DNA of 64,000 bases from Onchidella celtica (taxonomy: Eukaryota; Mollusca; Gastropoda; Systellommatophora; Onchidiidae). Below, piece after piece: positions 3,901-40,106 of the stretch. Below the pieces are notes generated by a model. The model ran no database searches and was not told where the DNA came from. It was given only the letters and a program-made list of their open reading frames with translations. The DNA is taken from NCBI GenBank assembly GCA_963931925.1, contig OZ007569.1, positions 16,665,045-16,729,044 on the forward strand. The letters run 5' to 3'. A program made the position numbers and the translations under genes. Numbering within the stretch: position 1 is the first letter of the stretch; each line of letters starts with the position of its first letter.

Positions 3901-6900
3901 GAATGAAAGTATATGCGATAAAAATATACTGAAAGAGCATAGCATGCCACTCAACCGTCAGGAGCAAGGGAAAAAAAAGCAAAAATGTGATTTTGTAATG
4001 ACAAAGGGTTTAGTTTTTCAAAACACTTGACATGCTAGGCCATTTGGTTAACCTGATCATGTACCATTTGTGGATTAACTGGCATCTAGACAACCAAAAA
4101 TTAGCCTAGCCATTTTCATAAACCAATCTTCGTCAGTTCTGGCCATACAATTTTATCAAAATTTTCTTAGTTGCTGACTCAAAAACTGCCATTTGGTGTC
4201 TCTCCGCTAAAAAAACAAACAAAAAAAAAACAACAACAACCCCATAATAAAACAACAAAGGGCAAAATAAATAATGTGATCTTTAAAATCAAAGCCATCG
4301 TGGCATATGTCAGCCTTTCTAATGACATTTTGCTACAGCAAAGACTTTTTGGTTGATGGGATTACCAGGTAAGAGATAGGCTGCAAGAACCATTGGTCAA
4401 ACTCTTTTGATTTATTTACCTTTGGACTGTTGATCCAGGCTGTTGCACTTTCTTTACAACAACAATGTTTTTTTCAAAGGAAGAAAATCTGAAATCACAG
4501 GTCATAACAGGATAAAACACAAGATGGCTAGGACATTACTACAGTACACAGGAAGAAAAATAAAGTCAAAATGTGGCCAAAAACAAAAAAGTTGAATGTT
4601 GCAAAGCCTCGCATAAGGAATAAGACAGAAATGACACAGTAAACACAACGGAAAAAGATACACATAGGCTGGGTTCGGAAAATCCAAGTCTAGGACTCGC
4701 AGATGACAAGTATCCGCATTTGTGAAAGATTCTATGATTTCTTTATTTGTTTAGGTTTCTAGCCTGTTACAGTTTTTTTTCCTGATGATTGACGACGGCC
4801 AATTCACCAATTTTAAGCTTGATTAGTCTTTCTTTTTCCTTTCCGTTTCATTGTACAGTTTCTGTACTATTTCTTACGTGAGACTTTGCAATGTTCAGTT
4901 TTACTTTTGGCCATATTTTGACTCTGCTTCAAGCCTTGCTAGAACCCACATATTTTCTGCTTTTTTAAAAAAAAATAACATAAAGACAGGAAGAAGTATA
5001 TTGTCTGAGAAAATGAACACCAAAATATCAAAATGCAGTGATGAAAGAAAAAAACAAATATAAAAAAAATATAGAGAAAAAACAAAACAAAAACAACTAG
5101 TCAGCAGCAGAATAATCGAATGCAACAAAACACATTTTATAACTAATTTAAAACTGTCCATGACAAAATATACTATGACTAACTTCAATCTAAATATCCA
5201 TAGCTAAATCTGAACGGCAGCATGCAAATAAAAATATGATCTGAAGAATCTGTAGACTGTATGGTAACAGTTTCACATGCTATTGGTGTGTTGCGCTTCA
5301 TGTCCAGGGCTCCCACTCAACTGAGAAAAAAAACAACTGAAATCTATGCGCAGCATAAATTTTAAATGATTGACCATATTCTGCGCATAAATTTGATATA
5401 ATGCACCATACATTACACCTACACACAGAAATACACAACAAAATACTTAAATAATAGTAATAAATGGACATCGGTAAAATTTCCGCTGATCTCTTCCACC
5501 GCGGATTTCCGCGGAAGAGTGGGAGCCCTGATGTCACAGAACTTGTGCTCCTACAAAATTCTGGATTTTATTTTGGCTTTTATCAGAAGTTCCAAGGGGC
5601 CATATCGTCACTGCTCTATGATAATGGCATATGTCAGAGTTATGCCAAAACTTAGCTGACAGTTCACTGCATTCCTGGGTATGAAGGCTATCAGATAATA
5701 TTACAGAAAAAGAAATGTGTCAATAGGAAAAATGTACGAGTCCAATAGGGTCATGATGGTGTAATAAGTCACCAAATGACAAATAAAAAAAATCCATATT
5801 CAGTTTTTCCTCAATATCTCAAAAGTGCCAAAAATGACATATATGTCATTAACGTTGAGCAGTAATGATATGTTTGGTTCTCTCAGGAGTTCCAATTCTT
5901 CTTTTCGAATTACAGACAAGCTTTGCGAGTACAGAATGCTCAGCCACCATGATGAATAAACAACTCTTCCTAACTGCTAATGTTCAGTTGTCGTGCACTT
6001 GGAGGCACTGATGCATCACAATTTCGGGTGACCTAAGTGAAACACACCAATGCCTAAAGAATGAAATTATAAACAGTAACATTACATAGACAGACATATG
6101 CTCTGGACCATGTCACGAGTGGAGTGAGTGCAATTAAGGGGATTGCTACAGAGCGGGTGTAGAGTAAGAAGGGCTCACAGTAGACAGCAAGTTAAGCGTG
6201 CTGTTGTGAGTAGTGGGGGGGGTCTGAATGAGGCGAAAGCGCGGTATTACGATCACTGCAAGTTAGAAGGTCCGACGGAGCGGACCTGTGAATAAGAGCC
6301 CATCGGGCGGACATAAGGGAAGCAGTCGAGAAGACTAGTGAGAGTCTTTCCAGTGATGACAGGTGTCGGGGACGGGCCGAAGAGCCACCTCGATGAGCAC
6401 AAGTGATAGGCCAGCATAGGGCCGGAGGCCGTACATAGGCCAGAAGTGAGACTGTCAGTGCAGGACAGTAGAAGCACATAAAGTCGTGGCAGTCAGGCCA
6501 CGGACAGGGACGTAGATATGAGAGTGAATGAGATACTATATTATTGCCATGATGATGGGCAAGTGAACTGATAAGTTGTATGGCAATAGGAAGGTGATGT
6601 TGAGAGACTGCGGTGCCAGTGAATCATTAATGTACTATTAAGACCCTGAGGGGAGAGGCTGAGGCCGAAGTACCTTTAGGAGTAACTACCGGATTGTGGA
6701 TCCGAGGGAGAGTGTGTGTGAGAATAAGGCCGTTGTACGGCAGTTAATTTCAGTAATATAATGTATGTAATTGCGCTATTATCTGTATAATTATGTTTAA
6801 TAAATGTGTGAGTCTGATGGATTGTTCTGTTAAGTGTTAAACTTGTTTGTTCGTGATTGTTGTCCTGTCATAAACTATTACATCTCCCAGTCTGGGATTT

Positions 6901-9900
6901 GTGACACTGGGGGCTCGTCCGTTGTGACACTGGGGGCTCGTCCGTTGTGACACTGGGGGCTCGTCCTGTTTACCTGTGGTCATTTTGACATTGTGTACTC
7001 ATTATATCTAGTTGTTTTTCTGTTGTGCTAGGAATTCGTGCTGTTGTCTTTGTTCGTGGGATGAATGGAAATGTCATGATGGTATGATTTATGTATGGTT
7101 ATGAATAATAATATGTATTGATGCATGTATTTTGATGAATATGTATTAATGTGTACTTAAATTTCTGCAGAGTGTGCGTGCAGCCTGAGGAGACGAGCAG
7201 CCAGAGCTCCGATTAAGGGGAGGAGTTAAACTCAAAATTCGAAGTTAAGTGAAACTGAAATTTTGTACCCTGGATCGGGGGCTGTTCCTTTAATCTGTCT
7301 TTTTCTCTGTTTTTGCTGTTTTCGTTTGCTGTGTTGAACCTAGTTTATCCTTTAAAAAAAAGGTGTGATAAACTTGGAACTTCGTTCATCACGGTGAACA
7401 TTCTGTAGGGCTTTGTTAGTGTTTAGTTGTAGCGTCGATATCTTCTCTGTTCCGCAGGAAGACGTATTCTCTTGTCCCTCTTTCTACCTATCTATAGATA
7501 CGTTCTTTTTTTTTCAGACTCTGTTCTTGTTCGTACCGTGTAGTGTAATCGGCGTAGTTAGGTTGCATTCTTTTTTCCATTATATTTTCTTTTTTAGGTC
7601 TTTGTCCTAGTCTGGTTCGTTGTCCTTGACGTACTTGTGGTCCTTCTACTGTATTTCTTCATTCTTGTCGTCTATTTCCTTTTATAATTGATAGTGCTAT
7701 ACATTTTATAGATATAGAATTAGTTGTGCTGTAAAGGTAAATTTCTGAATTGTATTTGAGACAACTGGGTATTGTTATATCTGGTGTGATCTCAGGTCTC
7801 TGGTCGTATCGTTAGTGATCATACCGACAGGTTGGTCGTTTTGTAATACATACCATAACCATAAATCTGTGAAATGGCGGAACTCCAACAATTAATGAAG
7901 TTGGGTAAGGAACTTGGCCTTGAGGGAGAAGAGCTACGCGGCTGGATTAAAGAACAACAGGCGGATTTGCGCGATGAGCGTGCTAAGGATAGAGAGCGAG
8001 AAAAAGAGGCTCAAGAGCGACAGAGAGAAGAGGAAAGAGAGGCTAAGGATAAGCAACAGGAAAGAGAGGCTAAGGATAAGGAAGAGGAAAGAGAGTTTAA
8101 GTTAAAGGAGTTAGAGGCTCAGCAACAGGAAAGGGAGTTTAAGTTAAAGGAGTTGCATCAGCAACAGGAGAGACAGGCTCAGGAGAGGGAGTTAAAGTTA
8201 AAGGAGATAGAGGCGCAAGTAAAGATTGCGGAATTAGAAAGCAAAAAGAATACGCCAACGGAAACAGTTGAGCGGCAGGTACACAATAAAGGTGGCGTTA
8301 GGATTAAGCTCCCTACGTTCGACGACCGGAAGGACGACATAGACGCCTTCCTTTACAGGTTCGAACTGAACGCACAATTGCAATGGGGGGAAAATAAGGA
8401 ATTATGGGCCACGTACCTGGCATCGCTATTGCAGGGGCGAGCGTTAACCTACTTTAAAGAGCTACAGCGCGAAGACGTGCAAGATTACGATAAGCTGAAG
8501 GCTTTGCTGCTTCGCCGATTTGCGCGTACCGAGGAATATTTCCGGGAGCAGTTTAGGCGAGCACGTGCAGATACCAGGGAGGACTTTGCTGCCTTCGTCG
8601 CGAGACTAACGGAGTATTTCGCGAACTGGGTAGACTTGGCGCATGTGGGCACGGATTTTGCTAAACTGAAAGACTTAATGATCCGTGACCAGCTGTACGC
8701 GTCGTGCCACAAAGATCTGGTGGCTTTCCTGAAAGAGAACGAACCCGCGACGGTGCAGGAGGCGTCTAAGTTGGCGGAGGCATACCGTACGGCGCATCCG
8801 TCCAAACCAGTCGCCAGGGCGTACGTCCAAGATGCTGGGTACGTCGCCGTTGTCGAAGGGTCGCCGGCAGGACTTAGGGACAGGTCGCGTCAGCGTGGTG
8901 CCTATAGCGGGCAAGCCCAGGGGCAGCGTAGGGGCTATCACCAATCACCGGCATATGGATCCGGTAAGTTTGACCGAGCAGGAGGGCTAGGTCGCGGTAA
9001 TGGCCGGGGGCGAGTTGTGACCTTTGCCGATGACCGACGGCATAGGGACTTTAGTTCCGGTCGCGATGGGTCACGGGGACCCAGGCCTAGTGCAGCACAG
9101 GGAGCGGAGTGTTGGACTTGCGGACGCGTGGGTCACTTTTCACGCGAGTGTAGGGCCGCGAAGTGTTGGAACTGCGGAAGAGCAGATCACATCAGCGTGA
9201 ACTGCCCTGCAGGTAGGATAGCGGCGAACGTGGACAGTAGCTCCAGTCCATGTTCCCCAAATAAATTTCATCATGCGGCTGCGTGTGTTACATCGGACAA
9301 CGGAGGCGGACAGTATTCTAAGTGTCCCAGTTGTGAGAAGTTATTATCTTCCGGTGTTTTACCTTGTGGGAGAAAGATCCCCGTTATGAATTCATGTCAT
9401 ACAGGAGGTGGTCTTAGGGTTTATCCGGGGTTTGTTGGGGACGAACCGGTCTCAGTTTTACGAGATACAGGATCTACCGTTGTGGGAGTGCATAGGGACT
9501 GCATTCGGGATTCACAGCTTACAGGTGAGACTGTCCCGTGTATCCAATTTTCGGGGGCCATTGAGAAATTACCCATGGCAAGAATAATGATAGATACACC
9601 TTTTCTTAGCGGGGAAGTCGAGGCAGTCGTTGGTTGTTTTCCAGGCGCCCAGCTCATCATTGGGAATGTATCACGGGTGGTTTCCCCTTCCGATGAGAAC
9701 GTGCAAGCATGGTCGCAATCAAAAGATATTGACTTTTGCGCCGCGGTCGAAACACGTCGACGGGTAGCTGATAAAGATAAGATTAGACCTTTGGCGACGC
9801 CAGCGGTAAACCTAGATATCACGCCAGAGCGCTTGGCGAGATTACAAAGGGAGGATCCATCATTAAACCCATGTTTTGGGGAAGCGCGAACCGAGAAAAC

Positions 9901-12900
9901 GAGGAGATATAAGAACGGGTCATCTTCTTTTTTTGTCCAGGGGGGCATTCTGTTCCGTATGTACGTCACAGTGGCTTCCGTTCAAAAGCAGGTCGTCGTG
10001 CCACGGTCGTTAATTGCTACAGTATTGCGTCTGGCCCATGATGTTCCATTAGCGGATCATATGGGAAGTGCTAGAACCAAGCAAAGAGTTCTGAAAAATT
10101 TTTATTGGCCGTCAGTATACAGAGATGTACGGTTATATTGTAAGACGTGCAGTGCGTGCCAAAAGACGACGCATAAGGGTCGTACACCCAAGGCTCCTCT
10201 TCAAAAGATCCCCACGGTTTCGGAACCGTTTAAAAAGGTTTCGATAGACCTTGTTGATTTAAGAGAAAGATTATCTTCAGCGCGCACTATAGCAGAAGAA
10301 GCTTCTGGTATCGCTTCGAAAAGAGCAAAAGACTATAAAGATAGAGGTTCCAAACTGAGAATTTTTAAGCCAGGAGACAAGATTCTGTTGTTGTTACCTA
10401 CGGACCATAATAAGTTATTGATGACATGGAAAGGACCTTATGTTATTGAGCAAGTTGTTTCGAGGGTATATTACGCTATCCACATTGATGGATCAAGTAA
10501 GGTTGTCCATGTTGATATGCTGCAGAGGTTTCATGAGAGACCAGAGTATCTGTATTCTCATACTAGTGTTGAAGGACATACCTAATGTCGTGTCATTCTT
10601 TGACGATATAGCATGCCATACGTCGACATGGTCTGATCATATTCAGACACTAACAGTAATTTTCCAACGATTACGTCATTTTGGGTTAACTGCTAAACCC
10701 GCAAAGATGGATTTGGCATGTCCAGAGATAATATTCTTAGGACATATTGTGGGTAGAGGTGTTCAGAGACCTGAAGAAACAAAAATTGACAAGTTAGTAG
10801 GGTTGCAAATCCCTAAAACAAAGAAACAAGTCAGAAGCTTAGTGGGAATTTTAAATTATTACAGAAAGTTCATTCCAAATTTTTCCTCCTTGTCATCTTC
10901 TCTTACTGACCTTACTAAGAAGGGACAACCCGATAAGGTCCAGTGGACGTCTGAATGTCAGACAGCATTTGATAATTTGGTGACAGCGTTATCATCGTCA
11001 CCCATTCTGATATTACCCGATTTTCGATCTAATTTTATCCTCAGAACGGATGCGTCGGACTCTGGTGTCGGCGATTGTCTTCTACAGGAGAAGAACGAAT
11101 GTCTCCATCCTGTATGTTATGTCAGTAGGAAGTTATTGCAGAGAGAAAGAAAGTATTCTGTGATAGAGCGTGAGTGTCTTGCCATTGTCTGGTCCGTCCA
11201 GAAACTAGGACGTTATCTCATGGGACGAGAATTTTGTATCCAGACAGACCACAAGCCACTGACATTTTTGTCGAAGAATCGTTCGTCCAGCCCACGCTTG
11301 TCTAGATGGGCATTGGCTTTGCAGCCGTATACCTTCGTTATTCAACCAATTCCAGGAACCAGCAATCATATCGCCGACTACCTTAGTCGAGCCTAGGGGA
11401 AGAGTTCAGCGGCTTATACATCAGAGGACAGGAACATTGACAGGATTTGTGTGAATGAGTCGACTTTAAAATATTGACATTATAAATATGATATGCAGAA
11501 TGGTTGATAGGTTGAGTGGTTTTTGATTCTGTATTAAGTATGGTGGTTAGTTAGCTATTCATGATGTGACACATATATGCATATTGCAGGCCATATTGAT
11601 CCCCATATTTTCCCCTGATTTCGGTATTTTATATACTAGGGGAACTGCTAGGTCATTTTTTTTAGTGTAGGTATTGCTCACGCTCACTCGTTGACAGTCA
11701 TCTTGATGCGATTTGAAATTAATTGCATTAATTTTTTTGGGGTGGGGGATGATGTCACGAGTGGAGTGAGTGCAATTAAGGGGATTGCTACAGAGCGGGT
11801 GTAGAGTAAGAAGGGCTCACAGTAGACAGCAAGTTAAGCGTGCTGTTGTGAGTAGTGGGGGGGGTCTGAATGAGGCGAAAGCGCGGTATTACGATCACTG
11901 CAAGTTAGAAGGTCCGACGGAGCGGACCTGTGAATAAGAGCCCATCGGGCGGACATAAGGGAAGCAGTCGAGAAGACTAGTGAGAGTCTTTCCAGTGATG
12001 ACAGGTGTCGGGGACGGGCCGAAGAGCCACCTCGATGAGCACAAGTGATAGGCCAGCATAGGGCCGGAGGCCGTACATAGGCCAGAAGTGAGACTGTCAG
12101 TGCAGGACAGTAGAAGCACATAAAGTCGTGGCAGTCAGGCCACGGACAGGGACGTAGATATGAGAGTGAATGAGATACTATATTATTGCCATGATGATGG
12201 GCAAGTGAACTGATAAGTTGTATGGCAATAGGAAGGTGATGTTGAGAGACTGCGGTGCCAGTGAATCATTAATGTACTATTAAGACCCTGAGGGGAGAGG
12301 CTGAGGCCGAAGTGCCTTTAGGAGTAACTACCGGATTGTGGATCCGAGGGAGAGTGTGTGTGAGAATAAGGCCGTTGTACGGCAGTTAATTTCAGTAATA
12401 TAATGTATGTAATTGCGCTATTATCTGTATAATTATGTTTAATAAATGTGTGAGTCTGATGGATTGTTCTGTTAAGTGTTAAACTTGTTTGTTCGTGATT
12501 GTTGTCCTGTCATAAACTATTACATCTCCCAGTCTGGGATTTGTGACAGACCACTTACACTGACAAAAACTGCAAGCAAATGTCTCAAGAAATAAAATTG
12601 TCAACACAAACATGACCAAGTCAATCAAAATGAATTGTACACTGAACTTTTATATTTCACTAAATATTTAAATTACATGTTTCAGATTACCAGGCCAAAA
12701 ACCACAGACTTGACAATTTCCACATGAAAAATTAAAAACAGTTTACTATTTTTTATTTCTGATTTAGATAAAACTAGGTGATTTTACAAATTGTGTTGAA
12801 ATTATATCACAATTAGTACTGATAAGAATTAAAATCCATTTAAAAAATGTGACTGTTTTCATACTTCCTTTATGAAAGAATAATTTTTGATAATGATTAT

Positions 12901-22101: not shown

Positions 22102-23150
22102 CCTTTCAATAGGCTAGCATGTCTCAGTAATGCTTTGAAGTCTAACCCATTGATGCAAATCACCCGATCTGTAATTAAAAATAATTATTATAAATGAAAC
22201 AAGGCCACGCTTATTCGCAGATGTCGATGCAGACAATATTTGTTTTTCCATACAGTTTCATTTACCAGTGTTTTTGTGATTAAATCACGTTTTGTGATGC
22301 TCTTATCAAGACATCACAACATCACATCGCATATGACTGCAGTCTGAACTTGAATAACTTTCCCAACTTTTGTGTCTCCACAACTTCCGTCTTGAGTTCA
22401 AAGGTAAATATGTGACCGTATAGTTTTCTCCATATAGTGGTCTGGTGTAAGCACACAGAAGTGCTCTGGACACTCTACTTTAGCTGGATTTTAATTGAAA
22501 ATATGTTACCTGGGGATTATAAGCGTGATTATGCACATATGGCGCTGACTGCACTGCCATTAATAAAAGTGACATGCATTCATTTGACATCACGCATGAG
22601 GAAACATCAGTGTTGTGTGTGCATCAACTGGGATCAGTAGATGCATTATTATTTAATATTAATATGATTACATGATGTATTTAAAACAAGAGTTGAAAAG
22701 AGCCACTGCACACCAGCTCGTGTGGTAACAACTGAAGAAAAGTGAATTTAATGAGAAACAAAGAATATTGTGGTAAAATCCAAATACATAGGCTATATTT
22801 CAAGGCATTTTGCAACTTGATCAAAGAATACTCTGAACAGATCTAGTAAATTCAGTGACTTAAATATGTACGGGAACATTTCTCCCTACTTTTAAAGCAG
22901 GAAAGAAAGATGGCAGAGAAGAAATAGAAGTTATAGGAGGAGCGGAAAAGAAAGAAGGAGTTAGCAGAGGCAAAGAAAAGGGAAGGTAGAAAGAAGAAGT
23001 GGGTGGTGTTGTGTGGCGGTGAAGAGCAGCCCACAAAAATTGGGCAAAATACCAGCATGAGGATGAGAAAGAGTGGGAAGACAGAGAATTGGAAAAGAGG
23101 AGAATGGGAAGATTGATTATCAGATCTATTTTGATATTGAATTAATTGAT
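22102..23150. other. upstream region of the START gene
   Basis: Would contain the START gene promoter and any 5' untranslated exon. I see no clear TATA box or CpG island. A purine-rich tract (GA-rich) lies at 22895-23110. Confidence 0.4.
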
Positions 23151-23198
23151 CACGGCTCCGAAAATGCACCGATTTCTTTCACTTCAGTTTTCCGCAAT
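23151..23198 (+). repeat. left terminal inverted repeat of the Chapaev-type element
   Basis: CACGGCTCCGAA at the very end, then TGCA, then TTTCACTTCAGTTTT after a short spacer. The order of blocks matches the right end. Confidence 0.78.
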
Positions 23199-24026
23199 AA
23201 ATCGCCTCCCGAGTGACAGGCCGTCGACGATGGTACCCCGGAATGGGGTGAGGGATGGGTTAACGACATGCCTGTGGTTTACCTGTCCTGTGGCACAAAA
23301 GCGCGCCAAAATTCACAGAATCTTTAAATCAGGTGGCTTCTCAAATGCATTCCGTTCAAGACTTTCTTCCGAATGCAGCAAAATTTTGGTTATCAGAGCA
23401 TATTGTTCGATAGTGATTCTTTCATTGTGCAAAAATTCGTGTGGACAGCATCAAAAGTTTTGATACAGTCGTATGCAGAAAGTGCGCATTTAAATTTCAG
23501 AAATTTTGCAGAATCTTTGTTTCCTGAGTGAATGTTTACGTTGATTTATGCAAATAGCAACCATAGGTTTTATTAAAAGTTTATTCATTAGAATCAGAAT
23601 TATATCTAGTTTACAATGATATTGATTTGACCCACAGGTCAGGAATAGTAAAATAATTATGAATAATACCGTGACAGCGACTGAAAATATTAGATTTTTG
23701 TTCATGTCGCGTTTCTCTTTGTGATAGAGAAATCTGCTTTTGTCGTAAAGAAAACCGTGTTTCGGTTAAATTTTAAGAAATAAATTGTAAATTCTAGATA
23801 TTTTCAGTTACAAGTAAATTCTGACCAAAAAACAAAAAAAAATCAGCGAATACTTCCCTTGACTGAACATCATTTTATTTTTGTCAAATCTCATGTTAAC
23901 TGTTCCCGTACTTTCCTGTAGGCTGTTTAACAGTTTCATGAGATGTTTGTCTATACTAAGGCATAAATGTTGCCATTTAGCCTAAAATCATAATCTGTTT
24001 CCATTAACAGCAGATACGATATTGAC

Positions 24027-24389
24027 ATGAATCATTCGTATGAAGTACATGTGAAAAATGTAGACGCTTTATGTAGGATTTGTGGCAGGAGATCCCTAAC
24101 TGCTAAACAAAGGAAATCAGGGACAAAACCACGAAAATGCATTGTTTTCAAGGATGACATTTTATTTATCTGTCATTTGAATATCGGACAAGATATTGCT
24201 GGTACACATTCCACAACAATTTGTTTTCCCTGTGTGGATGCCATAAAAAATGCAAAAAAACGTAAAAAGGAGGAGTATTTCAAGAACACTTTGAAAAGCG
24301 CTCAGGATAGCCAGCATATCTGGATTCCCTATGATGAGACGATGGCCTTTAGTGACTGTACATCATGCAAGCATTTTTACTTCATTTAA
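24027..24389 (+). CDS. RAG1-like N-terminal zinc-binding region of the transposon protein
   Basis: 120 codons. Cys16-x2-Cys19 (LCRICGRRSL) is followed by His61-x4-Cys66-x2-Cys69 (THSTTICFPC), then a Trp and a further Cys-x2-Cys (DCTSC). In vertebrate RAG1 the N-terminal region has the same order (CRICG, then H-x4-C-x2-C, then W...C-x2-C). The 13 residues before the His also line up without gaps. This region supports ubiquitin-ligase and accessory functions in RAG1; in the transposon its role is unknown. The frame stops just after DCTSCKHFYF. A relative would probably read on, so a one-base change near the T-run at 24374 is likely. Confidence 0.72.
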   Translation: MNHSYEVHVKNVDALCRICGRRSLTAKQRKSGTKPRKCIVFKDDILFICHLNIGQDIAGTHSTTICFPCVDAIKNAKKRKKEEYFKNTLKSAQDSQHIWIPYDETMAFSDCTSCKHFYFI

Positions 24390-25189
24390 TGCTGGCAACA
24401 AATTTGTCAAGTCAGATACAAATACTTGCACACAGTCTTGTGAGACGATCAGCTCTGCCGCAGTGCCCAGCACTGATGAGTGTACTGACCCTTTTTCCAC
24501 ATGAAGAAAATGACACAGAACCAAACATATCTAAGTCGCCGAGAAACGTAAGCCTACAACAACGGCCAGACTTCTCTCAATCGGATATAACAGATTTATA
24601 CATACAAGACGATGCCGCTGCCTCTCTGCAGTTTGCTCATGCCATCGGTGGCGATGATTTACGGCTGTCAGTCAGATATTTTGAAACACAACCACTTGCA
24701 TTTTCAACGCCAAGGAAAGAACAATATAACATAAAGCACACTTCAGATATTGCAACCTCACCATTTACAACACCAGAAAAGGCAGATCCCACAAAGAACA
24801 CAGTAGGTACATCGCCTTTCACAACCCCAGAGAGAGGTGATAACGTCACAAGTAGCAGGAGCACCGCAACTACAACAACACCAGAGCTTCCAAAGACACG
24901 TGCAGACAAAGTTATATCACCAATGATCAAAATGAACATATCAAAAAGCTCTTCATTAATTGACCAGCCTTTAAATTTAGAGGAGGAGAAACTGACTACA
25001 CATTTAATCAAAAGAAAGCTAAAATCTTCCGAAGACGGACAGACACTGAAATGTAAAACAGGAGTCCCAAATCTTTTATTCACACGAATAATAAACCCGA
25101 GAACACAAACAGAAAAGGCAAGCTCTACATCAAGATGGAAAAGGTCAAAACTTTTGGGAAATGTTCGCTCATCTTTCTGGAGACACTGA
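24365..25189 (+). CDS. middle linker segment of the transposon protein, shifted frame
   Basis: 274 codons in a different frame, overlapping the segments on both sides by about 25-29 bp. It is low in recognisable motifs: Thr/Ser/Pro-rich with a doubled SPFTTPE(K/R) phrase, and Lys/Arg-rich near its end (SRWKRSKLL). It looks like a disordered linker between the zinc region and the catalytic region. The ATG at 24365 is probably not a real start; continuity with the preceding segment by a frameshift correction is more likely. Confidence 0.55.
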   Translation: MQAFLLHLMLATNLSSQIQILAHSLVRRSALPQCPALMSVLTLFPHEENDTEPNISKSPRNVSLQQRPDFSQSDITDLYIQDDAAASLQFAHAIGGDDLRLSVRYFETQPLAFSTPRKEQYNIKHTSDIATSPFTTPEKADPTKNTVGTSPFTTPERGDNVTSSRSTATTTTPELPKTRADKVISPMIKMNISKSSSLIDQPLNLEEEKLTTHLIKRKLKSSEDGQTLKCKTGVPNLLFTRIINPRTQTEKASSTSRWKRSKLLGNVRSSFWRH

Positions 25190-26975
25190 AGGTTCCCGTG
25201 AATGCCAACACATTGCAGAACTTAAATATTTAAAAGCAGACTCAAGAAAAAGAATATGTCGAGCTGTAAATAAGAAGGAAAAAGTTGTTATCACGAAAGA
25301 GATATTTCTAGCCATGAAGGAGGCAGTGGGTCTGACACAACGACAAGTCGACATCCAAAACAGATTTTTAAAATGGCATGGCACAGCATTTTCAAATGAG
25401 CACAAGGTGCGTGCGTACAGCAAAAGTATGACAGGAAAATACATAGAAATCACAGAACGAAAATTTGTAGATGGAAAGGGTAGACCAGTAACAGCTCCAA
25501 TAGCCTCAATAAAAAATGTACCGGAGTTTGTGTCAGACCTTTTGGAAAAGTATGCTGAAAATAAGCAGCTGACGTGGTTCAACGGAACCATCCCAGAGGA
25601 TGAAATCTGGCTCAAAGTCGGTGCTGACCACGGCAAGCAAAGTTTCAAAGTTGCGCTTCATGTGTGCAATGTGCACAAGAACAACTCTAAACAGCACACA
25701 CATTTGGTATCCATCGCAGAGGTAAAGGACACCATTCCAAATCTACAATTGATTTTTGCCGATCTTCGGGATCAAATACACAAGCTGCAGGAGATGAAAT
25801 GGCGTGAGAAGAAGATTATAATATTTTTGTTCGGGGACTACGCCTTTCTGTCTCATATCTATGGAATTTCCGGTGCTACGGGAACATATCCCTGTCTCTT
25901 CTGCCTAGATTCGAAAAAGAAGATCCAAAAGGAAAGCACAGAGCCTTGCCAGAAAAGGACATTGAAATCAATTCATGCAGATGCAAAACATTTTGAAGAC
26001 AGCGGTGGTGAAACAAATAATGTTAAATTTTACAATAATGTTCTGAGATCTCCAATCCTACAGATTGACATACCTTACGTGACACCGCCCTACCTACATA
26101 TTCTACTAGGAATTGCATTAAAACACCATACACTTCTTGAGCAGGAGGCACAGAATATTGACAATATGATTGCCCGGGAGAAAGATCCAGTTTTTGGAAG
26201 AAACTGGTTGAATGCTGTTGAGAAAAAAAAAGAGATTAAACTGTACAAGGGTTGTGTAATACTTGATGCTGCGAGCAACAAGAAGAAAATGTGGAAGAGA
26301 GAAGTGAAGAGATGTAAGAAAGAGCTGTATGAATTGGAAGAACACAAAGACAAGGCTGTGGGGCCAGTACAAGAAAGTTTAGAGTCAGCACTACAGAGGC
26401 ATAAGATCGAGCGACAGGCCTATCATGGGGGCAATTTCATAGGGAACCACTGCAGAAAGTATTTTAAAGAAGAAGTTTTTACACACATTTCTGACACTCT
26501 TCTTAACAAAACACAAGAATACACTGAGGACGAGGACATTTTAGGGGTGGCCGTGACAACCAAGGTTATGTTTGATACATTAAATTCTCACTATGAACGT
26601 GTTCATTCTCTCATATCAAAAGCCCAGCCTGTTTCTGCAATCCAAGTAGCACAAGCTGAGTCTGCCATTTCAGATTACATGACCTTTTACAGACAGTGTT
26701 TTCCAAATCGTGTCATACCAAAACAACATATCCTGGAAAAACATTGCATAGAATTTATGCAAACATCTGGATTTGGACTAGGTTTTCTTGGGGAGCAAGG
26801 AGGCGAGCAACTTCATTCAACAGTTTCTCGACTGGCACGGAGAAGTGCGGCCATTAGATCTGACAAAGATAGACTCAAAAATATGTTGGAAAGTGCAATC
26901 CTTCTGACAGCACCAGAACTTAACTGTTTAGCACCTCAGCCGGCAAAAAGGAAAAGGAAAGGCAGCACCAAGTAG
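25161..26975 (+). CDS. RAG1/Chapaev-like DDE transposase catalytic region
   Basis: 604 codons. KVGADHGKQSFKVAL (Asp156) is the first catalytic-acid candidate. Next come FGDYAFL (Asp226) and, exactly 19 residues later, Cys245-x2-Cys248 in GTYPCLFC. RAG1 has an Asp and CxxC at the same spacing. IDIPYVTPPYLHI (Asp303) is the second-acid candidate. YHGGNFIGNHC resembles the RAG1 'N-G-N-F' helix region. HCIEFM...LGFLGEQGGEQLHS (Glu545/Glu548) is the glutamate motif. These are the acids expected of a cut-and-paste DDE enzyme acting on CAC-ended DNA. Apart from the frame change at its start the segment is intact over 1.8 kb, so loss of function is recent or reflects one or two indels. Confidence 0.75.
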   Translation: MFAHLSGDTEGSRECQHIAELKYLKADSRKRICRAVNKKEKVVITKEIFLAMKEAVGLTQRQVDIQNRFLKWHGTAFSNEHKVRAYSKSMTGKYIEITERKFVDGKGRPVTAPIASIKNVPEFVSDLLEKYAENKQLTWFNGTIPEDEIWLKVGADHGKQSFKVALHVCNVHKNNSKQHTHLVSIAEVKDTIPNLQLIFADLRDQIHKLQEMKWREKKIIIFLFGDYAFLSHIYGISGATGTYPCLFCLDSKKKIQKESTEPCQKRTLKSIHADAKHFEDSGGETNNVKFYNNVLRSPILQIDIPYVTPPYLHILLGIALKHHTLLEQEAQNIDNMIAREKDPVFGRNWLNAVEKKKEIKLYKGCVILDAASNKKKMWKREVKRCKKELYELEEHKDKAVGPVQESLESALQRHKIERQAYHGGNFIGNHCRKYFKEEVFTHISDTLLNKTQEYTEDEDILGVAVTTKVMFDTLNSHYERVHSLISKAQPVSAIQVAQAESAISDYMTFYRQCFPNRVIPKQHILEKHCIEFMQTSGFGLGFLGEQGGEQLHSTVSRLARRSAAIRSDKDRLKNMLESAILLTAPELNCLAPQPAKRKRKGSTK

Positions 26976-27844
26976 TAGATATTTCACCAGTTTACCCTTG
27001 TAAAAAAAAAACAACCAGCTAAAGAATCTTAAATGTGACAGTTTTAGTCCTATAAGTATTCTTTGACAAACAGTTGAGAATGTGTATGTGTGTGTACTTT
27101 GTTGGTCAATGTAATGCAGCTTGAAATCTTCATTATACATATTATATGCCTGTTCATGTAATCCTGATGAGAAAATGGCGATACTGCTTTTAATCGGTGG
27201 CCAACAACACTGAAAAGTTGCAATGCTACAGTGTTATACAAATCATTTCTGTCAAAAGCCATTTTTACGGTGTGATAATTGACTGGTAATGGGTATCAGT
27301 GCCCATTAGCAACCCAACACATGGATCGCTAACCTGAAGATACTGCAGCCTGAAGATACCGCAGCCATGTGGATGTGACGCTCTTTTGACATTTACAACC
27401 CCGTATTTTCTGAACTGGACTTGACCCGTGGAATCGGAAAAGTGAGACTTGTTGTTTAATGTCTTGTCCATCAATCTGCCAAAATTCATGTCACTTCATG
27501 GTTGCTATCTTTTATTACACCCATAATTAATTACTCACTTGTGAGTGGCATTTTGTGCAAATTTAATAGCAGTTTGTCATCATTTTATGGCTTTGAATTG
27601 GTGTATTTTCTTCTTTTTTTTCCACAAAACAAAAGAACAATATTTGCTGTGTACGAAATGGTTGTTCACTAGTTGAAAAATTTGTCAATAAAGATGTAAT
27701 TAATAGGTAAATGCAGTGCCTGTCACGCATTCCACACATTCCTTTAACATGCCTAAGCCAGCCAGCACAGGTAAAATTTTCACCAGGAGGCGGCGCGCGG
27801 CCTCCCGCTGAGTCTTGACAGAAAGGGGCGTAAGATTTATGGGC
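26976..27844 (+). other. 3' non-coding part of the Chapaev-type element
   Basis: No coding frame. A GTATGTGTGTGT stretch near 27080 and a doubled phrase (GAAGATACTGCAGCCT / GAAGATACCGCAGCC) at 27336-27366 are the only structure seen. Confidence 0.5.
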
Positions 27845-27882
27845 TGGGTACCAAACTGAAGTGAATGCAGTTCGGCGCCGTG
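27845..27882 (-). repeat. right terminal inverted repeat of the Chapaev-type element
   Basis: Read on the minus strand it is CACGGCGCCGAACTGCA, immediately followed by TTCACTTCAGTTTGG. The spacing between blocks is shorter than at the left end, as is usual for diverged termini. Confidence 0.78.
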
Positions 27883-27934
27883 TGATCACACAGATAAGCA
27901 TGCACTGATGGCACTTACTGTTTTAAGCATAACC

Positions 27935-29189
27935 TATAAGGAGGGTGGCTAAGTGGCTAAAACTATGTTTTTTGGAAAGTACAACCTCTTGTAACTATTC
28001 CTGCCCATTTTCGAGATTCTAACATGTTTTTTCTTTTTTCTACAGTTTTTTTAATATGCAGAGGTCAAGGTTTTAAGGAAAAATGGAGAAAACTGAATAT
28101 CGCGCAGTTATTAAGTACCTTCATATATGAAAGGCATGACATGTTCAGAGATTCGTGAGGATATGGTGAGAACATTAGCACAGAGTGCCCCTTCATATGC
28201 AACAGTCACACGCTGGGTCAGAGAATTCAAGCGTGGCAGGGAGAGTGTTGAAGATGACCCAAGACCAGGAAGACCCCCAAGTGCAACAACCAAGGATAAC
28301 CTTGACCTTGCTCTGCAGGTGGTTATGCAAGATCGCCAATTATCATGTCGTCAGATAGCCGAGAGACTTAGAATCTCCACTGAGCAAGCAGATTATAGCA
28401 TTTTAACAAAAAAAACTTGGATTCTCAAAGGTTTCTGCGCGGCGGATCCCTCGTCTTTTGAGTCCTGAACGGAAGCGCACCAGGTGCACACTGTCCACGA
28501 ACAATCTGGAAGTGGAACTGTTTGAAGCTGATGAAGAGAATTTCCTTGCTCGTTTCATCACCATGGATGACAGCTGGGTTCATCACTACCAGCCCGAAAC
28601 CAAAGAACAATCAAAGCAGTGGACACATGCATCATCCCAACCCCAAAGAAGGCCAAGGTCATGGCCTCTGTGTTTTGGGATTCTCAGGGTGTCTTACTGA
28701 TCGAATACCTTGAAAAGTGTCACACAGTAACTGGAGCGCATTATTCTGAACAATTGAAACGCCTTCGGTAAGCAATCAAAGAAAAAAGGCCAGGAATGCT
28801 CACCAACGGACTCCTCTTCCACCGAGACAATGCTCCGGCCCACACCTCAGTGGCCGCCATGGCAACGATTCGTGATTATGGATACGAATTTGTTCCCTAC
28901 CCACCCTATTCGCCAGACCTGGCCCCCTCTGACTTCCATCTGTTGCCCCTAATGAAAAAAGGCCTGGCTGATTGCCATTTTGCCAGTGACAATGATGTCA
29001 TAGCCGCTGTCAGGAGGTTCCTGGAGCCTCAGACAAAAGAGTTCTTCTACACTGGGATAAAGGCGCTTCTGCACCTTTGGAGGAAGTGTTCTGCCCTTGA
29101 GGGGGACTATATTGAAAAATAAACCAGCAGGAATCCTCTATCTTATTTAGTTTTTCTGATGCTTAAAACTTTTCAGACACCCCTTGTAT
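27935..29189 (+). mobile_element. degenerate mariner-type (Tc1/mariner) transposon
   Basis: The right end reads, on the minus strand, ACAAGGGGTGTCTGAAAAGT next to a TA. The left end ATAAGGAGGGTGGCTAAGTGG is a decayed version of it. The length of 1.25 kb and the enclosed transposase match mariner. It begins about 50 bp beyond the Chapaev-type element. Confidence 0.82.
28083..29122 (+). pseudogene. mariner transposase, broken
   Basis: Starts MEKTEYRAVIKYLHI and meets a stop at codon 16 (TGA). It continues through the helix-turn-helix region (KGMTCSEIREDMVRTL, TRWVREFKRGR) and the linker (DDPRPGRPPSATT). The catalytic acids remain in MDDSWVHHYQPETK (first D), HRDNAPAHTS (second D) and YSPDLAPSDFHLLP (third D), the DD34D pattern. 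At least two internal stops and several frameshifts make it non-functional. Frame changes lie near 28400-28460 and 28640-28700, and a stop lies in LKRLR*AIK. Confidence 0.88.
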
Positions 29190-33600: not shown

Positions 33601-34561
33601 TAGTATTAGGCAAATGGATAGGGTTTACTGGCAGGTTTAAAGGTCAGGTCAGAAAAATCTGCTACTGGTAACATGTAATCCAATACAACCTGTTTCATGA
33701 ACTGGTACGCTAGCATGGTATCAGTGGGCGTGCACCTGTCGGTGCAAACGGCCAGGGCGGAGGAGGTTTCATCTAACCCAACGGCCACATGCTAGGGCAC
33801 AATGTGACCCTCAGTACTTGAGTCCTTCATATTGGCCCCCGGTAGCGGTGTGGTCATAGGCTTGTTTGCCTAAATCACAGACGAAGAATTGAGCAAACTT
33901 CCCGGACGCAGCTTCGAAGCTGGCGGCAGCAGGCCAGTGGTTGATTGATAGGGCAGATGGCAATATACCGTCACTCTGGCCTGGATATCGTGACACAGAG
34001 CATCCACCAGTATTGGTGTTCTTTGGTTTGGGTCTTTCACCCTAGTCAGTTGGGACTGCGAGGCTGTGGAGTAGCCTACAGGCAGCCGGTCAGGCAATAT
34101 GACTGTCCCTCTGGCATCCTCCTGCACCTGGATACATTTCCAGTCGTCTCGACCCTGTCTTGCCACTTGGATAAGTTGTGTCCAGGCGAGAGAGTGAGTC
34201 TGATGTTTGCGCAGCTCTTTCTCACTAAAAACAAATTCTTTGCGCCAGTCTTAACACTCACCTCGTCTTCTTTCATCTTTGTCTCGTCTTCTTTCCTCTC
34301 AAAATTCCAACGGCGATGGGCGAGTGCGGTGGCAGCAGGTTTGGATAGACTGGAAGCTGTTAGCACAGACCTACACGTTGGTGGCTGTGGGCTATGGTCG
34401 CTTCATCGTCGATTGAAGTGGAGGCGTGGGGAGGCAGCACCCACAGTAGCTGAGCAGCCTTATTTAAGGATAGCACTGCTCACCTCAACTGAGGAAGGGG
34501 CTAGAAAAGGTGCCATAAAGAAAGCCCACTTCACATCACCCTGACTGGTATACCGCGACCA
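33601..34561 (+). other. LINE 5' untranslated region
   Basis: Lies between the 5' array and the endonuclease frame. Open stretches at 33945-34544 have no recognisable ORF1 features (no RRM, zinc knuckle or coiled coil). Confidence 0.55.
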
Positions 34562-37500
34562 GTGGGGATCCCTTTTTGCGGTCGAAACAAAAAGAAATTC
34601 AGCTTACTCAGGCTAGGAGCCTGGAATATACGCACACTACAGGACAACTCAAACAACCCGGAAAGACGCACTGCACTTATTGCCATTGAGCTCAGCAGGT
34701 ACAACCTGGACATAGTGGCACTCAGTGAGACCAGACTCCCTGATAGTGGCCAACTCAAAGAGCTCAGTGGTGGATACACCTTCTTCTGGAAAGGCAAGGG
34801 TGCAGTCGAACCGAGACAGCATGGTGTTGGGTTTGCAATTAAAAATGACCTTGTCAGAAACTTGCAGTCCATGCCAATTGAAATAAATGACAGGCTAATG
34901 ACACTCAGGATCCCAGTTGGGAAAAGCCAGTCAGCCACCCTCATTAGCGCATATGCGCCCACCATGACAAACCCAGATGAAGCCAAAGACAAGTTCTATT
35001 CTGATCTAGAATCTGTCATATGCTCTGTCCCGGCAGCTGATAAGCTGATTCTCTTGGGGGACTTCAATGCTAGGGTTGGCTCCGAAATCTCAGCGTGGCG
35101 AAATGTTTTGGGCCCTCATGGAGTTGGTTCATGCAATAACAATGGGTTGCGCTTACTTACTTTGTGCGCTGAATTTGGCCTGTTCATTACCAACACAAAT
35201 TTTAGTCTCCCCGTGAGAAACAGAACGTCATGGATGCATCCCCGCTCAAAGCATTGGCATCTCATAGACTATGTCATTGTGAGGAAGACTGACAGAAAGG
35301 ATGTCCTTGTAACAAAGGCGATGTGTGGTGCCGAGTGTGGAACTGACCACAGACTCATTGTTTGCAAGCTCAGACTAACATTGAGGCGCAATAGACGCCC
35401 TCAAGGGAAAGCGCCACCTAAACGCCTAAATGTTTCAAAACTCTGCTCAGCTGAGAAACAGAGCGAGCTCTCATCAGAACTCTCCTCAAAATTGGATTGC
35501 GTGACTTTTGACCCTGAGAACATTGAACAGAGCTGGACTGACCTAAATACGACTGTACACTCTTGCGCCAGCAGCACAGTTGGTTTTCCTGTCCGCAAGC
35601 ACCAGGACTGGTTCAATGATAATGATAATGAAATCAAAGTGCTCATCAAAGAAAAAAATAGTCTCATCCAAGCTCACTGCAGTGACCCCTCTTCCACAGC
35701 AAAAGCTGATGCACTGCGTGCATGTACTCCAGAAGAAGCTGAGGAAAATGAAAAATGACTGGCTTGAAGAGCGAGTAAGAGAAACTCAGAAATATGCCGA
35801 CACAAACAACACTAGAAAGTTCTTTGAGAGCCTCCGAGCTGTGTTTGGACCATCCCGCTCTGGCACTACGCCACTTCTTGCGTCAGATGGTTCAACACGC
35901 ATTGTTGAATTGAATGCCATAATTCAGCGTTGGGCAGAACATTTCGGAGGTGTGCTAAATCAGCCATCAAATATAAATACTGAGTCCATTGACCTTCTCC
36001 CTCAGACTCCTATTAATGCAGCTCTTGCCAAGCCATTCACAGCAAATGAGACCCGGACTGCCACAAATCAGATGTCCTTTAACAAATCACCAGGCGTGGA
36101 TTCAATTCCTGCTGAGGTGTATGCCTTCGGTGGAGAAAAGCTTATTGAAAGGTTGACCGAGTTGTTCAATCATATGTTGAAAGCAGGGAAGCTGCCACAG
36201 GACTTCAAAGATGCTTCAATCATCCATCTGTACAAAAACAAAGGGGACAGCCAAGTCTGTGACAACCATCGGGGAATCTCTCTACTTTCAATTGCTGGCA
36301 AAATATTGGCAAGAATGCTTCTGAATCGCCTTCCTGATCACCTCTCGTCAAATGACTTGCTTCCCGAGAGCCAATGTGGCTTTCGTAAAGAGAGGGGAAC
36401 GGCGGATATGATTTTTGCTGCCAGACAGATTCAGGAAACATGCATGGCACAAAATAAAGCGCTGTATATCACATTTGTTGACCTCACAAAAGCATTTGAC
36501 ACAGTGTGTCGTGAAGGCCTCTGGAAAATCTTGGCGAAGTTTGGGTGTCCACCCGAATTCATCACAATAGTGCGCCAGTTTCATGATGGCATGCAAGCTG
36601 CAGTCAAAAGCAACGGCCGTGTTTCAGAGCCATTTGCTGTCACAAATGGGGTAAAACAGGGTTGTGTCTTAGCCCCAACTCTGTTCAGCATCATGTTCTC
36701 TGCAATGCTACAAGAAGCCTTTAGCTCTCCTCCTCAAGGGGTAAGCATCAAGTACCGAACTGATGGCAGTCTATTCAACCTCAGGAGACTTCAGGCAAAA
36801 ACCAAAACCAAAACCAAAAGTACTCAAGTCTGTGACCTACTATTTGCTGATGATTGTGCACTTCTGGCACACGATGAGGATAGCATGCAAAACTGTGTTG
36901 ATAAGTTCTCTAGTGCCTGTGACAACTTTGGCCTCACAATAAGCACAAAGAAGACGGAAGTGCTCCATCAGCCTACTCCAGACGACAAGTATCCTGTGAC
37001 CCCAAATATCAAAGTCCATGACAGTCTTCTGAAGGTGTCGGAGAACTTCACCTATCTTGGCAGTACACTGTCTTCCGCGGCTCGTGTTGATACTGAAATT
37101 CTCTCAAGAATCAGCAAAGCCAGCTCTGCATTTGGCAGGCTTCGAAAGAGAGTGTGGGATGTTGCCGGCATTCGCACAGACACTAAGCTGAAAGTGTACA
37201 ATGCTGTGGTCCTTCCCACCCTACTCTATGGGGCTGAAACCTGGACAGTGTACCAATCGCATGCCAGAAAGCTAAATCACTTTCATCTGGCCTGCCTTAG
37301 AAAGATCCTAAGGATCAAATGGCAGGATAAAATTCCAGACACTGAGGTCCTCAATCGTGCCAAGGAATTGAGCATCTTCTGCCACCTGAAAAAAATTCAG
37401 CTACGCTGGGCAGGACATTTTGTCAGAATGCCCGACTCCAGACTCCCTAAGCAAATCTTCTTCTCTGAGCTCTCCAATGGAACGAGGAATGTTGGGGCCC

Positions 37501-37787
37501 CAAAGAGACGTTGCAAAGACACTCTCAAGCAATCACTGAAGGCCTTTGCTATTGATGTGAGTGAGTGGGAAAAGCTCTCGCTTGATCGTGCAAATTGGAG
37601 GGCGGCCCTTACCAGAGGCAGCAAAGCATGGGAAGCTGACAGAGTCCAGCAGGCTATCAAAAAAAGAGAACGGCGCAAGAAAAGGCCCAGTGGTACTGAA
37701 CCAACGGAGCACTCTTGTCATTTATGCGGAAGGGTCTGCAGGGCAAAAATAGGACTTATCAGTCACATGAGAAGCCATAAGTCATGA
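34562..37787 (+). CDS. LINE polyprotein: APE endonuclease and reverse transcriptase (one frameshift)
   Basis: The first part runs 34562-35758 and holds an exonuclease-endonuclease-phosphatase domain: LGAWNIRTLQD, ALSETRLPD, LLGDFNARVG, IDYVIVR and ECGTDHRLIV carry its active-site Asn, Glu, Asp/Asn and Asp-His. Near 35,720 the frame shifts. The second part (to 37787) holds the polymerase: PAEVYAFGGEK, HLYKNKGD, CGFRKERGTADMIFA, FVDLTKAFDTV, NGVKQGCVLAPTLFS and the catalytic FADD in LLFADDCALLA. The RT tail LRWAGHFVRMP and a C2H2 finger (C-x2-C-x9-H-x4-H in the HSCHLCGRVC...SHMRSHKS end) follow. There is no RNase H. The clade is not certain. One indel stops it being a single frame, so this copy is inactive or nearly so. 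Confidence 0.9.
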
Positions 37788-39362: not shown

Positions 39363-39469
39363 CCCTACCACAAAAAACACTCAAAACTGTCAATAAGAAA
39401 AATAAGAAGAAGAAAAGTGAAGTGCAAATGCCAAGAGCAGCGGAACATCCTAGAATAAAGACCTAAATC

Positions 39470-40106
39470 CATTCACTGGTCGTGCAGAGTGTTGTGGCCA
39501 TTCACTGGTCGTGCAGAGTGTTGTGGCCATTCACTGGTCGTGCAGAGTGTTGTGGCCATTCACTGGTCGTGCAGAGTGTTGTGGCCATTCACTGGTCGTG
39601 CAGAGTGTTGTGGCCATTCACTGGTCGTGCAGAGTGTTGTGGCCATTCACTGGTCGTGCAGAGTGTTGTGGCCATTCACTGGTCGTGCAGAGTGTTGTGG
39701 CCATTCACTGGTCGTGCAGAGTGTTGTGGCCATTCACTGGTCGTGCAGAGTGTTGTGGCCATTCACTGGTCGTGCAGAGTGTTGTGGCCATTCACTGGTC
39801 GTGCAGAGTGTTGTGGCCATTCACTGGTCGTGCAGAGTGTTGTGGCCATTCACTGGTCGTGCAGAGTGTTGTGGCCATTCACTGGTCGTGCAGAGTGTTG
39901 TGGCCATTCACTGGTCGTGCAGAGTGTTGTGGCCATTCACTGGTCGTGCAGAGTGTTGTGGCCATTCACTGGTCGTGCAGAGTGTTGTGGCCATTCACTG
40001 GTCGTGCAGAGTGTTGTGGCCATTCACTGGTCGTGCAGAGTGTTGTGGCCATTCACTGGTCGTGCAGAGTGTTGTGGCCATTCATTGGTCGTGCAGAGTG
40101 TTGTGG
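39470..40106 (+). repeat. 29-bp minisatellite, 22 near-identical copies
   Basis: The unit is ATTCACTGGTCGTGCAGAG followed by TGTTGTGGCC. Copies are identical as far as read, except C-to-T in the last one (CATTCATTGG). Because 29 is not a multiple of three and the unit has no stop in any forward frame, all three forward frames stay open and give the same 29-residue repeat. There is no sign that it is translated. Confidence 0.97.

Follow-up and report, generated by a model that had tools for sequence, protein, structure and literature searches.

A stretch of 64,000 nucleotides from the genome of the gastropod Onchidella celtica (contig OZ007569.1, positions 16,665,045 to 16,729,044; in the following, the window) carries a 4,732-bp transposon that can almost certainly be assigned to the Chapaev (CMC) group of cut-and-paste DNA transposons. 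Its most informative feature, missing from a previous sequence-only reading of the window, is its pair of unequal bipartite ends, in which a terminal CAC block is accompanied by an inner block at two distances that differ by about one helical turn. This long/short layout is conserved in the Onchidella celtica genome, a statement made with high confidence. Considering the evidence as a whole, we find it likely that the element is a Chapaev transposon with a zinc domain homologous to that of RAG1 and with long/short bipartite ends used in pairing. The element spans positions 23151-27882, with CAC/GTG termini and a TGAT target site duplication (TSD) on either side, and is composed as follows.

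23147-23150, no strand: left copy of the TSD, TGAT (4-mers identical in 19 of 23 two-ended sequences, see below)
23151-27882, plus strand: complete Chapaev element, 4,732 bp
23151-23162, plus strand: 5' (long) end, block 1, CACGGCTCCGAA
23176-23190, plus strand: 5' end, block 2, beginning 25 bp from the end, with the AGTT core at +35 (23186-23189)
24027-24386, plus strand: N-terminal RAG1-like zinc domain ("Chapa") with C16, C19, H61, C66, C69, W99, C111 and C114
24376-25189, plus strand: linker in two reading frames, without RING match
25095-26975, plus strand: catalytic part of the transposase, Pfam DUF1280 (E 1.8e-16), in a 626-codon stop-to-stop frame
25626-25628, plus strand: codon of the first presumed catalytic Asp, D178 of the 626-aa frame, invariant in alignments
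25836-25838, plus strand: codon of the second presumed catalytic Asp, D248, from alignments
25893-25904, plus strand: C-x2-C after D248 (C267, C270), from alignments
26727-26744, plus strand: H-x4-H (H545, H550), presumed equivalent of the two zinc histidines of RAG1, from an alignment
26793-26807, plus strand: E567 to E571 in the GEQGGE block, both Glu invariant in the alignment
27853-27867, minus strand: 3' (short) end, block 2, CATTCACTTCAGTTT read inward, beginning 15 bp from the end, with the AGTT core at +25
27871-27882, minus strand: 3' end, block 1, CACGGCGCCGAA read inward
27883-27886, no strand: right copy of the TSD, TGAT

The sequence-only reading had given the interval 23147-27886, which agrees with these boundaries when both TSD copies are included, and the CAC-starting termini and the TGAT duplication that it had reported are likewise present in the window. 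The 5' block 2 of the window copy is one base off CATTCACTTCAGTTT, the form found in most copies.

End layout and its possible role in pairing

The end signal consists of a CACRGC terminus and a second block with the core YTYAGTT, the AGTT of which is located at +35 from the 5' end and at +25 from the 3' end. For the family of the window element (F1), 37 sequences were examined (36 loci plus the window, diverged derivatives included). Block 2 (CATTCACTTCAGTTT) begins at +25 in 29 of them and at +15 in 26, with 8 and 11 sequences, respectively, being unscored by an ungapped template that could miss shifted copies; in one derivative, L030, the block starts at +24. A second family (F2), showing 38-39% protein identity to F1 and at least 14 open frames of 991 codons, possesses a block 2 differing from that of F1, GCGGTATTCTAGTTGCCGA, at the same +25/+15 in both copies read, and F2's block and distances are also found in one copy of F3. 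Between the two ends, block 2 is offset by 10 bp in F4 and F8 and by 11 bp in F5 (one copy each). With YTYAGTT as anchor, the AGTT core is at +35/+25 in F1, F2, F3, F4 and F8 and at +37/+26 in F5, the 5' end of which holds an additional AGTT at +11. The blocks of F2, F3 and F4 are related and are counted as one lineage, leaving four distinct blocks among these families. When comparing F1, F2, F4, F8 and F5, 5 or 6 of the first six bases are identical, and 5 to 7 of the seven core bases. In the 22-bp 5' spacer, nine of the ten comparisons show 1 to 8 identical positions and F2-F4 shows 12; in the 12-bp 3' spacer, 2 to 7 positions agree. Terminus and core are thus kept between families, and spacer likeness is mostly near chance. 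In all 27 copies chosen because a transposase stretch and both ends were listed, the long end is the one upstream of the transposase.

The 1.14-Gb assembly was scanned with patterns built from the family blocks, leaving the gap free across 31 lengths. With the F1 pattern, 53 matches were obtained (control 0), 34 of them 30 bp, 18 of them 40 bp and one 39 bp long. The F2-4 pattern gave 392 matches (control 0), and among the matches listed (100 of 392) 51 are 32 bp, 48 are 42 bp and one is 41 bp long. For F5, 105 matches were found (control 8), those listed (100 of 105) comprising 44 of 31 bp, 48 of 42 bp and eight others. Among the matches listed for these three scans, 87 of the 88 convergent pairs less than 12 kb apart consist of exactly one long and one short end (41/41 for F2-4, 13/13 for F1 and 33/34 for F5); in the exception, a 40-bp with a 42-bp match, the former is a short-type end containing a repeated stretch. 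The F8 pattern resulted in 91 matches (control 0), namely 84 of 39 bp, five of 29 bp and one each of 40 and 43 bp, which form four pairs, three of them exact and one 29/43.

A role of the long/short layout in synapsis appears moderately probable. CAC-ended DDE transposases cleave DNA adjacent to CAC, and RAG1 holds its inner signal via its nonamer-binding domain. In Chapaev, transposase subunits would contact both blocks of a long end and of a short end within a paired complex. Two subunits would bridge the two ends, with block 1 lying close to the active site and block 2 being gripped deeper inside the element. With an offset of 10-11 bp, corresponding to about one helical turn, the two blocks would point to the same side of the DNA. 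Such an asymmetric complex would take one end of each kind and disfavor pairing of like with like, as in the 12/23 rule, and the DDE site would then cut next to CAC and insert the element with a 4-bp stagger. This pairing model would explain why the length of the spacers is kept while their sequence varies.

Several points weigh against this interpretation of the ends. Most F8-type ends are lone, as 84 of the 91 matches are long ends and only four pairs were formed; lone F8 long ends could be an exception to the long/short layout. A relaxed F8 pattern provided a partner for one more short end and none for the lone long ends among the matches listed. One such lone F8-type long end is, for example, located at C1:29096759-29096797. 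Moreover, the ends of F4, F5 and F8 are each read from a single copy, the other of the two F3 copies shows no ends with matching duplication, and a transposase part binding block 2 was not identified. Finally, end pairs are not independent events because the families share one genome and ancestry. Accordingly, the 10-bp difference might be an accident of an ancestral element, inherited without any role in end pairing. All families being homologous and residing in one genome fits such inheritance, as does the presence of near-identical copies within a family, which reduces many pairs to few events. However, spacers have diverged and the distances are nevertheless the same in five of the six end sets, the sixth deviating by just 2 and 1 bp, and F5, with a difference of 11 bp, still retains one turn; an accident is thus considered unlikely. 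Still less probable is a function of block 2 as promoter or host-factor site that would not be bound by transposase for end pairing. The position of the 5' block 2 upstream of the gene would suit it, and so would the lack of an identified transposase domain for this block, but block 2 is present at either end, each time oriented alike with respect to the terminus, and is also found in derivatives without open gene (L030-L039, see below). A RAG1-type nonamer-binding domain in the Chapaev linker is unsupported, the sole matched stretch (E 0.0086) being located past the basic part.

Family assignment and relation to RAG1

The transposase coding stretch (24027-26975) is spread over three frames, being broken near 24.37, 24.49 and 25.15 kb, and coding within the 626-codon frame starts only after the third break. 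Due to these breaks, the window copy is unable to make the full protein; it could be moved in trans by intact sibling copies. The catalytic frame matches DUF1280 at E 1.8e-16, close to the value for the intact sibling L009 (E 1.4e-16), and this family has been described as comprising the putative Chapaev transposases and placed in one clade with RAG1 (excerpt of PMC3985635). A search of 5.8 billion proteins revealed 77 relatives, with at best 41% identity and, where named, including sequences from Nucella, Littorina, Haliotis, Plakobranchus, Holothuria, Lytechinus, Branchiostoma and Hydra. DUF1280 is found in all 58 aligned sequences (the window frame and 57 of the 77 relatives) at E up to 1, the 20 relatives not aligned being mostly short and 13 of them lacking a precomputed Pfam domain. 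In the same 58 sequences and at the same threshold, zf-AD is found 12 times, the RAG1 importin-binding family six times and the zf-C3HC4 RING three times. The RAG1 core family PF12940 is not listed for the window catalytic frame at E up to 10 and is absent among the best 25 of 92 families listed for the 58 aligned members; a search for it in the Onchidella genome gave no match, with the control being equally silent. Scans of prokaryote and viral contigs did not reveal relatives of the element.

With Chapaev (CMC; Repbase 2007; DUF1280), the element shares CAC...GTG termini, the 4-bp TSD, DUF1280, the DDE residues with C(2)C, LH and H(4)H, and the N-terminal Chapa domain, the latter being recognized via homology to RAG1 and to Chapaev relatives (25 of the 77 are homologous to the window N-terminus at E < 1e-8). 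A TSD of 3 to 4 bp is given for Chapaev (excerpt of PMC4079192). The 3-bp TWA duplication characteristic of Chapaev3 was not found, duplications being 4 bp long and of mixed sequence, nor was the 5-bp duplication of Transib and RAG-like (RAGL) elements, the copies examined showing 4 bp. The assignment to Chapaev, the CAC ends and the 4-bp duplication given in the sequence-only reading are thus supported. CAC ends, a RAG1-like N-terminus and the residue order would also be compatible with a RAGL or Transib element, but 4-bp instead of 5-bp duplications contradict such an affiliation, as do DUF1280 in 58/58 aligned members and the absence of PF12940 among the best 25 of 92 families, leaving it a practically negligible probability.

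As judged from profile comparisons, the N-terminal zinc region of the element is homologous to that of RAG1. In a seven-row N-terminal alignment, C-x2-C, H-x4-C-x2-C, W and C-x2-C are all invariant, and the resulting family profile matches RAG1 (hhalign) with a score of 81.9 (E 9.3e-14, probability 98%), compared to 19.5 for the best of 100 column shuffles and 13.7 for the reversal. Without the three RING-bearing rows, the E-value is 5e-12, and with the window sequence alone 1.7e-6. In a search of 177,635 PDB sequences, the seven-row profile finds the RAG1 N-terminal structure 21wb first (E 6.4e-10), followed by full RAG1 (4.1e-6) and then 7po9 (0.016, or 0.0098 once RAG1 joins the profile), a chain which we take to be a ZAD (zf-AD) domain. 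The RAG1-like N-terminus proposed before is thus supported by the family-profile comparisons. Its zinc motifs, said to be spaced as in RAG1, do show the same spacing inside each motif, whereas between motifs the distances differ, with 42 residues from C19 to H61 (57 in RAG1) and 42 from C69 to C111 (32 in RAG1).

Less favorable to homology are the composition of the PDB-search profile, in which three of the seven rows are RING-bearing relatives, the PDB search with the window N-terminus alone, which did not return RAG1, and the match of the window N-terminus to Pfam RAG1_imp_bd, which is under the cut-off (E 0.053). If the likeness were convergent or that of a general zinc finger, it would be understandable that Pfam zf-AD matches the same N-termini (6/7 at E up to 1) and that the window N-terminus alone gives E 0.016 for zf-AD versus 0.053 for RAG1_imp_bd. 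With the family profile, however, RAG1 is far ahead of the putative zf-AD structure in PDB (6.4e-10 versus 0.016), and neither the 100 column shuffles nor the reversal come anywhere near the real score; convergence is accordingly regarded as highly improbable.

Besides, the Chapa/RAG1 N-terminal zinc region (24027-24386) looks related to the insect zf-AD (ZAD) finger. The best of the six zf-AD matches to Chapaev N-termini has an E-value of 6.6e-7, and zf-AD matches a RAG1 N-terminal fragment at E 0.0038 while not being listed for two full-length RAG1. A literature search gave no paper in which RAG1, ZAD and zinc all occur as whole words.

With E up to 10 as threshold, none of the three window frames matched a RING finger. 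In the relatives P0032, P0055 and P0065, a RING motif lies between N-terminus and core, in P0032 only weak by Pfam. Kapitonov and Koonin (2015) identified the Chapa domain, which they named after Chapaev, with the N-terminal part of RAG1, with RING following Chapa in two subgroups, and inferred an ancient common ancestor that already joined these parts (excerpt of PMC4411706). Likewise, RAG1-like proteins (RAG1L) with N-terminal zinc motifs are known, the molluscan ones also having a RING-type domain (excerpt of PMC7204232). That the element joins both RAG1 halves had been inferred in the sequence-only reading, but this has been published for Chapaev (excerpt of PMC4411706), and the element lacks the RING; because of the RAG1-like N-terminus of Chapaev described in 2015, the main inference of that reading is mostly known.

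In the catalytic half, the read-through residues D537, D607, C626, C629, H694, G809-N810, H904, H909, E926 and E930 have counterparts in RAG1 in the same order, and both the D-to-C distance of 19 residues and H-x4-H are identical. The Asp followed exactly 19 residues later by C-x2-C, to which attention had been drawn before, corresponds to D607 and C626 in the element and to D713 and C732 in the RAG1 protein P0081. Inferred from the profile alignment, E571 of the 626-aa frame is probably the last catalytic Glu, equivalent to RAG1 E962 (mouse numbering). Other details had to be revised: the "G-N-F" block is not a conserved piece, as relatives instead keep the next G-N in the form G-N-H (72 and 73 of 78 rows), and the "E-x-x-E" block is indeed an acidic one but with E-x3-E here (GEQGGE) versus E-x2-E in RAG1.

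In profile comparisons, the likeness of the catalytic half to RAG1 is weak. Its profile scores 31.6 (E 0.0075, probability 5%), and the highest-scoring of 30 shuffles 25.6. Taking the N-terminus away from the full-length set leaves E 0.39, and PDB searches with the aligned-family profile and with the window catalytic frame did not return RAG1. The full-length profile matches RAG1 at E 1.1e-9 over 764 columns (score 91.3); when the N-terminus is kept and the rest shuffled, one of 25 shuffles reaches this score, with at most 152 columns aligned. From the N-terminus-removal and shuffle controls, it follows that the E-value of 1.1e-9 is owed to the N-terminus, and the whole-length match was rejected as support for the catalytic half. 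Hence, likeness to RAG1 along the whole length, as claimed previously, would rest on residue order and not on profile scores, holding for the N-terminus and, in the catalytic half, solely for order and spacing of residues (E 0.0075 and 0.39 in the profiles).

Copies, derivatives and neighboring elements

With 40 of 91 candidates scored, at least 15 copies (window included) span the whole 3-kb query at 97-100% identity, and from this likeness it follows that the family has moved recently. A single open, intronless frame of 975-995 codons is present in four of 21 copies (L009, L010, L012 and L014; the 21 being the window and 20 loci, some partial). Among the 37 F1 sequences, 23 are two-ended with the ungapped template, and 19 of these show an exact 4-bp duplication, the 4-mers varying. 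Other copies with the same ends and 4-bp duplications, for which the sequence-only reading had proposed a search, thus do exist, but their duplications are mixed in sequence; a TGAT-type duplication was rejected, as the duplicated 4-mers differ between copies.

Ten deletion derivatives of about 2 kb (L030-L039; about 76-89% identical by piece) show a common junction in which element positions up to 1227-1236 are fused to 3908-3910 (10/10), and for seven of them both ends are visible in the fetched piece. They retain the RAG1-like N-terminal domain, which is open in none of the ten, so they would need to be moved in trans. The KP element is a precedent for a repressor. For the 2-kb derivatives, a stand-alone, repressor-like RAG1-type N-terminal protein was rejected with 0/10 being open over the domain. 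They represent a possible model for N-RAG-TP of Aplysia, which reportedly goes back to Panchin and Moroz in 2008. Like L030-L039, N-RAG-TP is a mobile element with only a RAG1-like N-terminal sequence (excerpt of PMC8355894). The derivatives differ from it in that their N-terminal domain is open in 0/10, on account of which they look like passive deletion products.

The window holds further repeats. About 230 bp after the element, a mariner-like transposase fragment (28115-28465) shows HTH_32 and, under its cut-off, HTH_48 of Mos1. A block resembling a long terminal repeat retroelement (6192-12265) contains SCAN, zinc knuckle, integrase and RNase H domains, and two identical 143-aa antisense frames flanking it suggest long terminal repeats. 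In addition, a long interspersed nuclear element (LINE)-like element (34505-37787) whose endonuclease and reverse transcriptase domains are encoded in two frames that overlap and a 29-bp tandem repeat (39469-40106; 22 copies, 99% matches, several frames open) were observed.

Relation to known systems and the 12/23 rule

The element belongs to a known group. Unequal bipartite ends with a fixed 35/25 spacing were not found described in the Chapaev literature searched (in excerpts, Repbase reports not covered), so a fixed long/short layout across Chapaev families is apparently undescribed there. With RAG1, the element has the N-terminal zinc region and the order of presumed catalytic and zinc residues in common, and with the 12/23 pair of recombination signal sequences (RSS) the terminal CAC and an inner block whose two spacings differ by about one turn (11 bp in 12/23, 10 or 11 bp here). 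In contrast to RAG1 and its RSS, it lacks the RING and the ACAAAAACC nonamer, shows longer distances and a 4-bp instead of a 5-bp duplication, and its catalytic half is without clear profile match. ProtoRAG and other RAGL elements likewise have CAC ends and asymmetric bipartite ends, with ProtoRAG spacers of 27 and 31 (excerpt of PMC8289069), but the ProtoRAG offset is 4 bp and its duplications are 5 bp long. ProtoRAG has a RAG2-like partner. In the Drosophila P element, an inner transposase site is also unequally spaced, at 9 and 21 bp, which has been noted as reminiscent of 12/23 (excerpt of PMC7776569). This element is a member of another superfamily with 8-bp duplication and THAP domain, and its likeness to 12/23 implies that such unequal ends can arise independently.

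Ends that are bipartite and unequal by one turn might be ancestral to the Chapaev-Transib-RAG1 clade; then, the 12/23 logic would predate RAG, would have been kept by Chapaev and become the vertebrate RSS pair, with the symmetric Transib ends representing a loss. This scenario is tentative and rather doubtful. Most Transib families have symmetric ends, and Hztransib shows little or no likeness to the nonamer; following the RSS pair back to its origin is therefore difficult (excerpt of PMC8289069). For the origin of the 12/23 rule, Chapaev adds a second, distant group among the proposed transposase relatives of RAG1. Its long and short ends, with a conserved inner block displaced by about one turn, provide a concrete, assayable comparator for 12/23, and the same genome contains copies whose transposase frame is open. 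If the asymmetry is general in Chapaev, it would either predate RAG or have arisen more than once, and either outcome would be informative.

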